This document shows, piece by piece, positions 148 to 4,317 of a DNA stretch of 64,000 nt. Where the stretch lies: assembly GCF_006716645.1 (NCBI RefSeq), contig NZ_VFPL01000002.1:124001-188000 (forward strand). The letters are read 5' to 3'. The translations under genes and the position numbers were made by a program. Numbering within the stretch: the stretch's first letter is position 1; each line of letters begins with the position of its first letter. The notes under the pieces were generated by a model. That model made no database searches and was not told the DNA's origin. It worked only from the letters and a program-made list of their open reading frames with translations. Source of the stretch: Arcticibacter tournemirensis. GTDB lineage: Bacteria; Bacteroidota; Bacteroidia; Sphingobacteriales; Sphingobacteriaceae.

Positions 148-1995
148 CTATCTGTTACTGCTGACACGCGTATTTTGAATGGCTTCATATATAATATCCT
201 GAATTCGAGGCCTTATCCTCAGACTGCTTAATTTGTTTGCAGGCTGATCGTTTAAACGATTAGACAGAAATATATATATCAGGTTATATCTCGGATCTAC
301 CCACACACACGTCCCCGTAAAACCGGTATGCCCATATGTTTCAGGTGATGCGAGCTCGGAGGGGTACCTGTTGGTACGGTCGGGATCCCATCGGTCAAAA
401 CCGAGCCCTCTTCTGCTTGTATTGGATTGCCGGGACGTGAACATACTAATGGTTGATGATTGAAAATACTGCTGTCCTCCATAGGTACCGCCATTAAGCA
501 TCATCTGAAACAGGATAGCCAGGTCGTTAGCAGAGGAAAAAACACCGGCATGGCCTGCTACCCCTCCCGCTAAAGCGGCCCCCTGATCATGTACATAACC
601 CTGCAACAACGTTTTCCTGAAATAAGTATCGTTTTCGGTGGGAACTATGCGGCTTGTATCAAAACGCATCCTCGGGTTAAAGCCCGCTGTCTGCATTCCA
701 AGAGGCTTATAAAACTGCTGAAACACATATTCATTCAGTTTTTCTGATGTCTGCCCCTCCACTATTTCCTTCATGAAGTACATACTGAGGTCGCTGTACT
801 CATACTTACCCCTTTGCCGCAGGCCTGTACTGAGCATCCTCGGCAGCATAATGTCTTCGTAAAATCCCTTACGTATATAATAGTTGTCAGCTACCTTAAC
901 AGGAAACAACGCAGATGAATCCCTGCTAAAGTCATCCGGTTTAATACTATTATGAAAAGGAATGTAAGGAACAAGACCTGCTTCGTGGAGCATGAGCTCA
1001 CGCACAGTAAGATTATTCTTATTAGTACCCCTTGCAAGGGGAATATAAGCCCCAATATTAGTATCAAGTCGCAGCTTCTGCTGTTCATACAACCGCATAG
1101 CCGCCATGGTCGTTGCTGCAATTTTGGTTACAGAAGCCAAATCGAATATATCCGTGAGCTTAGTGGTAAAGGGACCTCCATAAGTATGGTGTCCGTAAGC
1201 TTTATCAAATATTACTTTCCCATCCTTTACCACCGTTACTACAGCGCCCGGAGTCGCGTGTTTGTTGATTGCTTCCTTTACAACATCATCAATGCGGGTT
1301 AATGCCGTACTGTTGATCCCAGCGTCCTCAGGAACCGAATACTTAAGGCGCGTAGCCACGGTGCTGAAACCGTCACCCCTTTTATGTTTTTGGGAAACAT
1401 CAACCGCCAGCTTCGCTGAAGCAGCTGTGCCGCCGAAAATAAGCTGAGCGGTAAAACTTGAAGCAACGGGAGAACTTTGTGCCGACCAGATAATAGGGCA
1501 CTCAATACTATCAAGCACAGCTAAGTGCGTTGGATTTCCAAACAATACCAGGATCACCTGTTTGCTCTTTTCCAGATCCCTTATAAACGTCCTGCTTTTG
1601 ATATCGTTCAGTACGGCGCCCGGAGTCTGAATAATTACTGTATTAAAAAGTTTAAGGTCAAAACTGAGTCTATCAAGATCTGGCGATTCACTCGAGTATC
1701 CTAACGATGAAAAACGTGAAATATCCGTATACTTATTCAGAACGCTATCGAATTCGGTGGCATAAGGATACCCCATATTCACGCTTGCAATCTTATTATC
1801 AGCTAAATTTAAAAGAGGGACGACCCCTTTACTGTTATTGAGCAGCACAGTAGATTTCTCTGCATTCTTCATTTGCTCCAGCCATTCGTAGCCCGGCTGG
1901 CTGCACGAAAAACCAAAAGAGGTAAGGGCCATAAGCATAATCAGAAAAAAAGGCAGAGCAGAGGAGAGATGAGTTTTGTTAAATTTCATATGCAC
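148..1995 (-). CDS. exported serine hydrolase (beta-lactamase/class C fold) with a GH3-C-like N-terminal region
   Basis: This 615-residue protein begins with a hydrophobic export signal ending near a GFSC cysteine, so it may be a lipoprotein. Residues about 30-210 look like the C-terminal alpha/beta domain of GH3 glycosidases. Residues about 220-600 are a serine beta-lactamase/penicillin-binding-protein fold: SVTK near residue 288 (nucleophile Ser, Lys), YSD near 398 where YSN or YAN is usual, and HTG near 555 replacing KTG. In Bacteroidota, GH3-beta-lactamase fusions of about 1000 residues are known; here the GH3 catalytic barrel is absent. A role in peptidoglycan turnover or as an esterase is likely but not shown. 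ATGs at codons 1 and 3 are both possible. An independent hairpin terminator lies 60 bases upstream. Confidence 0.8.
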   Translation of the reverse strand: MHMKFNKTHLSSALPFFLIMLMALTSFGFSCSQPGYEWLEQMKNAEKSTVLLNNSKGVVPLLNLADNKIASVNMGYPYATEFDSVLNKYTDISRFSSLGYSSESPDLDRLSFDLKLFNTVIIQTPGAVLNDIKSRTFIRDLEKSKQVILVLFGNPTHLAVLDSIECPIIWSAQSSPVASSFTAQLIFGGTAASAKLAVDVSQKHKRGDGFSTVATRLKYSVPEDAGINSTALTRIDDVVKEAINKHATPGAVVTVVKDGKVIFDKAYGHHTYGGPFTTKLTDIFDLASVTKIAATTMAAMRLYEQQKLRLDTNIGAYIPLARGTNKNNLTVRELMLHEAGLVPYIPFHNSIKPDDFSRDSSALFPVKVADNYYIRKGFYEDIMLPRMLSTGLRQRGKYEYSDLSMYFMKEIVEGQTSEKLNEYVFQQFYKPLGMQTAGFNPRMRFDTSRIVPTENDTYFRKTLLQGYVHDQGAALAGGVAGHAGVFSSANDLAILFQMMLNGGTYGGQQYFQSSTISMFTSRQSNTSRRGLGFDRWDPDRTNRYPSELASPETYGHTGFTGTCVWVDPRYNLIYIFLSNRLNDQPANKLSSLRIRPRIQDIIYEAIQNTRVSSNR

Positions 1996-2046: not shown

Positions 2047-2160
2047 GAAAAAAGCCCGGATGATCCGGGCCTGGTTAGTTTGAGTGTTGTTGTTCCCATC
2101 TTTGTTACAGTACCGTTACAGGCCAGATCTTTCGGCAAAAGCCGCCTGGCTCGAATTTAT
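2047..2160 (-). ncRNA. candidate structured leader or small RNA ending in an intrinsic terminator
   Basis: Read on the minus strand, this stretch folds a GCCAG/CTGGC stem (2146-2150 with 2122-2126) enclosing a CGGC-TTTT-GCCG hairpin. An A/C-rich single-stranded stretch follows, then a GC hairpin with a U tract. GGCCTG (2119-2124) can pair instead with CAGGCC (2068-2073). That alternative breaks both the first stem and the base of the terminator, the logic of a transcription attenuator. The RNA ends about 55 bases before the serine hydrolase ATG, so it is either that gene's leader or a free-standing sRNA. I do not recognise a known riboswitch class. The 5' end is not defined; TATAGTTG on the minus strand near 2245-2255 is only a weak promoter match. 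Confidence 0.45.
2048..2070 (-). terminator. intrinsic terminator, minus strand
   Basis: A GCCCGGA/TCCGGGC hairpin (2054-2070) is followed on the minus strand by six T residues (2048-2053). It lies upstream of the serine hydrolase and cannot serve mutL, which runs the other way. It therefore ends a separate leftward transcript or works as an attenuator. Confidence 0.75.
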
Positions 2161-2466
2161 ACTATATCAGTTGGTTAAATTTGTATTAGTTGTTGATTAA
2201 GAGTTTGTAAACATGAAAGTCAGCATAAAAAACGAATTATGCAACTATATTTAAAAAAAACGGCTAAAAAGATTTCCAAATAGCTGTCTTTTAGAGACTA
2301 CCAGCTATCAGACACATCAGCAAGGATGTAGTTTACAGGAAGTTGTAATTTGATAACGACAGGAAAAAAACTTTATTGTGTAAGATAAATTTTAATACAC
2401 CCAATGTCATACTTTACCGATATCTGAGAGCCGATAGCTTTTTATTCCTATTTTTGTGCATTAACT
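2071..2466. other. intergenic region between divergent serine hydrolase and mutL
   Basis: There is no convincing protein gene in these 396 bases. The left third holds the minus-strand structured RNA. The rest is AT-rich and contains the mutL promoter at its right edge. I see nothing else. Confidence 0.6.
2449..2456 (+). promoter_or_regulatory. mutL -7 box TATTTTTG
   Basis: This is an exact TAnnTTTG match ten bases before the mutL ATG, implying a leader of only about five bases. No clear -33 TTTG lies upstream. Confidence 0.6.
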
Positions 2467-4317
2467 ATGTCTGATATTATACAGCTTTTACCTGATTCGG
2501 TTGCCAACCAGATAGCAGCTGGCGAAGTAGTCCAACGACCGGCATCGGCAGTGAAGGAACTTATAGAGAACTCGGTAGACGCCGGGGCAGGTAAAATACA
2601 ACTGATCGTCAAAGACGCAGGAAAATCTCTTATTCAAATTATTGACGATGGCTGTGGCATGAGCGTTACGGATGCCCGCATGTGTTTTGAACGCCACGCT
2701 ACATCCAAGATCCGTAAGGCCGAAGATCTGTTTGCTATCCGGACGATGGGATTCCGTGGTGAAGCTATGGCCTCTATCGCTGCCATTGCGCAGGTAGAGC
2801 TCAAAAGCCGTCGTCATGAGGATGAGCTTGGAACATTAATATGTATCGAAGGGTCTGAAGTTATTAAACAGGAACCTGTTTTATGTCCCGCAGGTACCAG
2901 TATCAGCATCAAAAACTTGTTTTACAATACGCCTGCCCGACGAAACTTCCTGAAAGCAAATCCGGTCGAGCTTCGGCATATGATCGATGAATTTCAGCGG
3001 GTAGCATTGGCACATTCTGATATTCATTTCACATTTCATCACGAGGGTAACGAGCTTTTCCACCTGCCAAAAGCCAGTTTAAAGCAGAGGATCGTGCATC
3101 TCTTAGGCAGTTCCTACAATCAGAAGCTGGTGCCACTTGAGGAAGACACGAGCATCATCAAACTAAAAGGGTTTATAGGAAAACCCGAGTTTGCAAGGAA
3201 AACACGGGGTGAACAATTCTTTTTTGTTAACAACCGCTTCGTAAAAGACCCTTACCTCAACCATGCAGTATTAACAGCTTACGACGAATTGCTTCCCGAC
3301 GACAGCTATCCATTGTATGTCCTTTTTATAGATATTGATCCTTCCAAAATCGACATCAATGTCCACCCGACTAAAACGGAGATTAAGTATCAGGATGAAA
3401 AGGCAATATATGCCATTATACGATCGGCTGTAAAACGCTCGCTCGGTCAGTACAACATCACCCCAACTCTCGACTTTAACCAGGAAACCGGCTTTAGTCA
3501 GATGATCTCCCATAAGGCGCCTGAGGATATTGTTCCACCTCAGATTAGTTTTAATCCCGACTTTAACCCTTTTCAGTCAGAACGAAAATCAGAGAGGTCG
3601 TCGTCGTATGCCAGCAGTTTCGGTGAAAGTCCCAGGGATGTGACTAAAAACTGGGGGTCTCTTTATGAAATCGTAGATACCGTAAAGCATGAACAACAAA
3701 AAATAGACCTTGGTATTACACCCGAAGAACAGGAAATAATTAATAAATCAGACCGGCAGTTTTTTCAGCTTCATACCCGGTTCATTATCTCGCCCATAAA
3801 AACCGGGTTCATGCTCATAGACCAGCAGGCAGCACATGAACGCATCCTTTACGAACGTTTCCTGCAGCAACTCGAAACACATCAGGGTGCAAGCCAGCAA
3901 AGTTTATTTCCTCAAACTGTTAATCTTAACCCGGTTGATTTCGAACTGGTCAAAGAACTTCTTCCGGATATTCAGGCTTTAGGGTTTCTGGTCAGAGAAT
4001 TTGGGAAAAACACGTTCGTAGTAGAAGGCATCCCTGCAGATATCAGCTCGAACGTTAGCGAAGTAGAAATGCTCGAACATCTGATTGAAGGATTTAAAAA
4101 CAACTTCACCCTTTTAAAATTAGATAAAAGGGATAATTTAGCACGCACTTTGGCCAGAAATGCTGCCTTGAAAACTGGAACACGTTTATCGCAGGAAGAA
4201 ATGAACAACCTGATCGATCAGCTGTTTGCCTGTGAAACACCCAATATATCACTACTTGGAAAACCGGTGATCATTAAATACTCACTTGAGGAGCTAATAC
4301 AAAAATTTGAAAAATAA
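2467..4317 (+). CDS. mutL: DNA mismatch repair protein MutL
   Basis: This is a 616-residue MutL of normal length for Bacteroidota. The N-terminal GHKL ATPase (about 1-330) shows ELIENSVDAGA, DDGCGM, the RHATSKI region, MGFRGEAMASIA and NTPARRNFLK. A low-complexity linker (about 350-400) leads to the C-terminal dimerisation domain. Near residue 451 it reads DQQAAHERILYE where the endonuclease motif of MutL is DQHA(x)2E(x)4E, so the third position is Gln instead of His. The later CPHGRP motif is replaced by a CETP...LGKP version. MutL couples MutS recognition to strand incision and excision in the cytoplasm. The start is set by a -7 box ten bases upstream. The first rhomboid gene begins 26 bases downstream, so they may share a transcript. 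Confidence 0.95.
   Translation: MSDIIQLLPDSVANQIAAGEVVQRPASAVKELIENSVDAGAGKIQLIVKDAGKSLIQIIDDGCGMSVTDARMCFERHATSKIRKAEDLFAIRTMGFRGEAMASIAAIAQVELKSRRHEDELGTLICIEGSEVIKQEPVLCPAGTSISIKNLFYNTPARRNFLKANPVELRHMIDEFQRVALAHSDIHFTFHHEGNELFHLPKASLKQRIVHLLGSSYNQKLVPLEEDTSIIKLKGFIGKPEFARKTRGEQFFFVNNRFVKDPYLNHAVLTAYDELLPDDSYPLYVLFIDIDPSKIDINVHPTKTEIKYQDEKAIYAIIRSAVKRSLGQYNITPTLDFNQETGFSQMISHKAPEDIVPPQISFNPDFNPFQSERKSERSSSYASSFGESPRDVTKNWGSLYEIVDTVKHEQQKIDLGITPEEQEIINKSDRQFFQLHTRFIISPIKTGFMLIDQQAAHERILYERFLQQLETHQGASQQSLFPQTVNLNPVDFELVKELLPDIQALGFLVREFGKNTFVVEGIPADISSNVSEVEMLEHLIEGFKNNFTLLKLDKRDNLARTLARNAALKTGTRLSQEEMNNLIDQLFACETPNISLLGKPVIIKYSLEELIQKFEK

Follow-up and report, generated by a model that had tools for sequence, protein, structure and literature searches.

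A candidate small RNA gene beside mutL in Sphingobacteriaceae, with conserved complementarity to the tails of a multicopy RNA family

The window, a 64,000-nucleotide stretch of the Arcticibacter tournemirensis genome, contains mutL (2467-4317, plus strand) and a gene for a serine hydrolase of the PF00144 family (148-1995, minus strand); the element considered here lies between the two. The original prediction described it as a minus-strand structured RNA with a terminator, and the arms and terminator that it named were all found in place: CTGGC/GCCAG (2122-2126/2146-2150), GGCCTG/CAGGCC (2119-2124/2068-2073), and GCCCGGATCATCCGGGC (2054-2070), the last followed by a T run. Both folding and a terminator search support this description. 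The 114-nt interval folds at -33.2 kcal/mol (z = -2.16; 8 of 200 shuffles were equally good), and the whole fold beats chance only modestly; the search of positions 1900-2500 returned one terminator-like site, compared with a shuffle mean of 0.4. The prediction had also seen no known RNA class, and indeed no Rfam family matched the window RNA at the cut-off, a permissive search giving sub-cut-off matches only, while its relative in genome G030 had no Rfam match up to E 2. 6S RNA (RF00013) was rejected as a candidate, as it was not found in the genome of the window by a search that matches 5 of 14 control genomes.

Relatives were sought by sequence and by position. Within the genus, BLAST of the element recovered G001, G003 and G004 but not G002 or G005. 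Against 201 genomes, ten of which matched at E 0.01 or better, it added G051 from outside the genus; G038, G094, G097, G144, G164 and a second match in G004 were dropped as short partial matches. MutL is present in 99 of 101 genomes, and a scan upstream of mutL (70 loci: 30 + 40, two unparsed; one substitution permitted in the motif TCAAACTAACC) found this motif in ten of them, namely G000 (the genome of the window) to G005, G051, G030, G006 and G029. An eleventh copy, in G017, is separated from mutL by about 2.5 kb, with an inserted gene for an FAD-dependent oxidoreductase in between.

Alignment of the seven close relatives revealed a second conserved segment upstream of the predicted interval. 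Identity in 15-nt steps is 0.89, 0.85, 0.70 and 0.65 in the 5' part, drops to 0.49, 0.52 and 0.54 in the region of the predicted stems, and rises again to 0.70, 0.82 and 0.85 in the 3' part, followed by 0.69 at the 3' arm of the terminator, a value depressed by G001, which is incomplete (145 nt, lacking that arm) in the alignment as well as in the pairing-probability run. The interval 2047-2160 is thus real but too short, as conserved sequence and a promoter-like pair occupy approximately 2168-2245. The elements of the locus are as follows:

2242-2245, minus strand: -33 promoter-like element, GTTG here and TTTG in the other eight strict matches
2214-2221, minus strand: -7 promoter-like element GACTTTCA, from the alignment and the strict pattern
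about 2208, minus strand: putative RNA start, placed from the position of the -7 element
2168-2212, minus strand: conserved, G-poor 5' segment ACAAACTCTTAATCAACAACTAATAC...TTTAACC, identity 0.70-0.89 in seven sequences
2108-2152, minus strand: variable hairpin region, holding the first predicted stem together with the 5' arm of the alternative pairing, identity 0.49-0.54
2095-2100, minus strand: pairing block 1, GAUGGG, complement of the tail loop CCCAU and its closing C (see below)
2072-2084, minus strand: pairing block 2, CUCAAACUAACCA, complement of UGGUUAGUUUGAG of the tail family (see below)
2047-2072, minus strand: intrinsic terminator of the window RNA, from the fold and the terminator search

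The promoter-like pair, TTTG or GTTG followed after 20 nt by [TG]A[CT][CT]TT[CG]A, has a strict match in 9 of the 11 window-type RNAs when spacings of 19-21 are permitted; the 20-nt spacing is likewise seen in the seven-sequence alignment, and in G005 and G051 it is the -7 site that departs from the pattern. A terminator is present in all 11, its stems changed in the ten sequences and in G017. The distance from the conserved 5' segment to the 3' core stays within 116-131 nt, and that to mutL varies from 116 to 444 nt. Judged by these boundaries, which are drawn from sequence, the locus would be a transcription unit of about 160 nt (approximately 2047-2208, minus strand), directed away from mutL and provided with its own promoter-like site and terminator; the gene would then be that of an independent small RNA, and the interval first described would make up its 3' two-thirds.

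The stems on which a switch was proposed to depend fare less well. Nowhere is the RNA less conserved than around the first stem (0.49-0.54 vs 0.65-0.89 elsewhere), and only two of the seven sequences have the alternative pairing at the corresponding place: the window itself (G000) and G004, where it includes one G-U pair; G003 has a six-base match at another place, and the remaining four have runs of 3-5 at most. For both reasons, a switch built on these stems is unsupported.

The conserved letters of the RNA lead elsewhere in the genome. The pattern GATGG N5-17 TCAAACTAACC matches the window locus and six others in the same genome (reversed-pattern control, 0), and the other six, on the opposite strand, are all 3' tails of other RNAs with intrinsic terminators. 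Such a tail consists of GGUUUAUAAUUGGUUAGUUUGAG and a terminator with the loop CCCAU, or, in full form, UUUAGGUUUAUAAUUGGUUAGUUUGAGCUC[CU][UC]GCCCAUC[AG]GGAGCUU, followed by a T run. By eye, five of the six stand behind tRNA-like sequences or remnants and one (L092) behind a short 5' hairpin. When searched alone, one tRNA-like body scored 34.9 bits against RF00005 (cut-off 29); loci L092-L095 gave no Rfam match at the cut-off and no tRNA call by ARAGORN, and L171, L121, L092 and L095 gave no Rfam match up to E 0.01.

Across Sphingobacteriaceae, the tail occurs in multiple copies and frequently follows a tRNA-like body. In 201 genomes of the family, the reverse-complement pattern has 76 matches in 20 genomes (control, 9 matches), which linker and context divide into 58 tails in 14 genomes (55 read in context and three by the matched string only), one tail with another terminator, 11 window-type RNAs and six unrelated sites. 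Allowing up to three mismatches, the tail core occurs in 267 of 400 genomes at up to 24 places each (control, 0-3 per genome), single matches at this level being possibly due to chance. Hairpins of at least 5 pairs are present in 62 of 68 distinct tails from the loci retrieved, and the loop of 59 of these 62 is CCCAU (54) or GCCCATC (5), with stems that vary with compensation. Several of the RNAs concerned (L093 2864-3040, L094, L095 on contig C1 of the window genome, L171, L168, L176 and others) are tRNA-like and have a variable arm of increased size, with some 37 nt inserted in the RF00005 alignment of one copy; the multicopy tRNA-like RNAs carry the invariant tail GGUUUAUAAUUGGUUAG in several genera of Sphingobacteriaceae and, in the window genome, an upstream promoter-like TTTG...TATCTTTG.

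GAUGGG and CUCAAACUAACCA, the most conserved letters of the window RNA, are the exact reverse complement of the tail motif. GATGG and TCAAACTAACC recur in all eleven window-type RNAs, 6 to 13 nt apart; several of these were recruited by the TCAAACTAACC motif and G017 by the full pattern, so that invariance there is partly by construction, and GATGG is present in G030, G006 and G029 though it was not used to recruit them. Exact-pattern tails occur in 14 of the 201 genomes, 11 of which have the window-type RNA and three no detected partner; in the same sample there is no genome with the window-type RNA and without tails. In each of the 11, the longest Watson-Crick run between the RNA and the tails of its own genome is 12-18 nt, a length reached by 0-3 of 500 shuffles. 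A search for a compensated partner in 18 genomes with TTTAA-type tails gave 21 matches in 11 genomes, all with tail-type linkers and none a window-type RNA.

Three further candidates were rejected. For a leader peptide starting at the ATG of block 1 (ATGGGAACAACA...), the distance from ATG to CTCAAA is 15, 12, 13 and 11 nt among relatives of the same genus, hence the frame is not kept. No mRNA emerged as a direct target of the tail in the window genome: the 20-mer complement, searched with at most three mismatches, has seven places there, all of them tails, namely the six already known and C1:3878762, where the tail has a different terminator. This copy (C1:3878748-3878781; L155 1460-1520) has the terminator stem AUCUCCAUC/GAUGGAGAU and lacks the CCCAU loop. 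Finally, a possible further binding site within the 5' block (CAAACU, UUAACCAA) is split and AT-rich, and we do not claim it.

Bases flanking the core tend to follow the tails of the same cluster. G002 and G005 have AAGCUC, matching GAGCUU in two of five tails each, the remaining tails having GAGCUC; G051 has AGAGCUC for GAGCUCU (5 of 5 read); G017, UUUUC for GAAAA (2 of 2); and G029, AAUC for GAUU (1 of 2). In a permutation test over six clusters, with the true assignment counted and related genera treated as exchangeable, the observed sum was reached by 2, 1, 2, 1 and 1 of 720 permutations for five measures and by 21 of 720 for the sixth. The signal comes mainly from G002/G005, G051, G029 and G017; it is weak in G000/G001/G003/G004, which add one base to the core on that side, and in G006/G030, which add 0-1 and whose pairing energies to their own tails are no better than to tails of other genera. 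Taken whole, the window RNA pairs with its own tails only moderately better than shuffled RNAs do (RNAduplex; 15 of 500 shuffles as good). The core is predicted to be free at 0.56-0.97 in 10 of the 11 genomes and at 0.39 in G004, GAUGG to be mostly paired within the RNA in 10 of the 11 (unpaired probability 0.42 or less), and the tail core to be unpaired at 0.30-0.58 in four members from the window genome.

The best reading of the locus, to which we assign a probability of about 0.58, is that of an independent small RNA that would pair in trans with the multicopy tail family, most likely as an antisense or sponge RNA; a free small RNA had been the second choice of the original prediction, and it is the better one. 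GAUGGG would pair with the CCCAU loop of the tail terminator, and CUCAAACUAACCA with the strand just 5' of that terminator, the free linker between the two blocks bridging the terminator stem. The anatomy of the gene, its conservation, its complementarity to the tails and the covariation of the flanks are read directly from sequence. We infer that the window RNA is transcribed and that such duplexes form in the cell, by which it probably captures or controls the tail RNAs instead of serving as a switch for the adjacent enzyme gene; the outcome would most likely be sequestration or destabilization of the tail-family RNAs. More tentatively, and at somewhat less than even odds, the RNA may be an antisense regulator dedicated to a lineage-wide family of multicopy tRNA-like RNAs in Sphingobacteriaceae, co-evolving with this family and controlling it by pairing with both loop and tail.

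An unlikely alternative is that the RNA is a cis-acting leader of the downstream operon, where tail RNAs would bind 5' of the terminator and alter read-through into the hydrolase genes. An ORF of 120 codons or more, in the same direction as the RNA, begins 37-189 nt past the core in 10 of the 11 genomes, and the pairing site is directly beside the terminator stem or a few nucleotides from it. A -7-like site past the terminator is seen only in G000, G051 and G030, which leaves the majority of downstream genes without a recognised promoter of their own; G030, moreover, has no co-directional ORF of 120 codons starting within about 420 nt. Against such a leader, the following gene differs between genera. 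It is the serine hydrolase, to which the element had been tied, in 7 of the 11 genomes (G000-G005 and G051); in G006 and G029 it is of amidohydrolase type, judged from the translated start, and in G017, the one genome where PF07969 was tested, an amidohydrolase-type gene of that family is followed by a PF00144 hydrolase. With G030, this makes three downstream contexts in 11 genomes, which suggests that the RNA is tied to the vicinity of mutL and not to the hydrolase. Furthermore, the predicted pairing in the window genome and its closest relatives ends beside the terminator stem and does not open it.

We consider it quite unlikely that the complementarity is a by-product, reflecting either an inverted copy of the tail or a DNA- or protein-binding motif present in opposite orientation at both kinds of locus. 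The motif, which is exact, could be read as DNA, and in several species the linker has no clear relation to the tail stem; yet the flanks of the partners covary, the two blocks persist across five genera despite drift in the linker, and the tail keeps its loop while its stems change with compensation, which points to selection at the RNA level.

Regulation in the reverse direction, with tails as decoys that titrate the window RNA off other targets, appears improbable. Each of the 11 genomes has several tail copies and one copy of the window RNA, and tRNA trailers are known as sponges: 3'ETS-leuZ, a tRNA trailer of E. coli, is a sponge RNA against RyhB and RybB. However, the tails are more widespread than the window RNA, so their conservation has another cause. 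The likeness of 3'ETS-leuZ to the antisense pairing preferred here is that one RNA neutralises another and that tRNA-type transcripts are involved; the difference is that the tRNA-like trailers would here be the captured side and that the pairing includes a terminator loop.

The original idea of a self-contained riboswitch or attenuator, in which the arms do overlap as described, is very improbable, given exclusive pairing in two of seven sequences, the low conservation of that region, the absence of a riboswitch match in Rfam and the variable downstream gene.

In anatomy, the nearest published analogue is the FopS (GibS) family of Bacteroides thetaiotaomicron (PMC11697453). These multicopy small RNAs have canonical promoters, an intrinsic terminator and a seed that is conserved and single-stranded; it is the tail family that they resemble, rather than the window RNA. 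The seed consensus printed there differs from GGUUUAUAAUUGGUUAGUUUGA and lies at the 5' end of FopS, a tRNA-like body is not mentioned in the passages available, and the word "sponge" does not occur in the main text (PMC11697453). With this difference in seed and no Rfam match for either the window RNA or the tail loci, neither is assigned to the FopS family. The searched open-access literature contained no description of the window RNA, of the tail or of the pair that they would form, and the novelty would lie in control by a base-pairing small RNA whose partner tail matches no Rfam entry here. The genus Bacteroides is described as having no homologues of the classical RNA chaperones (PMC11697453).

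RNA regulation in Bacteroidota is little explored. Through a conserved antisense partner, a large RNA family that has no name and up to 24 tail-like places per genome becomes accessible to study, and deletion of a single gene in a cultured member of the group would put the function of this family to the test.

Two minor observations concern individual genomes. The window-type RNAs of G017 (L148 4440-4600) and G029 (L069) share a different 5' domain, CGGGGCAAAGUAGUG ... ACGGGGAU ... CCCCGAAAAAA, which appears structured by eye. Contig C14 of G051 (260122-261652; L121) carries five tandem tail-bearing units spaced 367-404 nt apart, and the three inspected each stand behind a tRNA-like 3' end.
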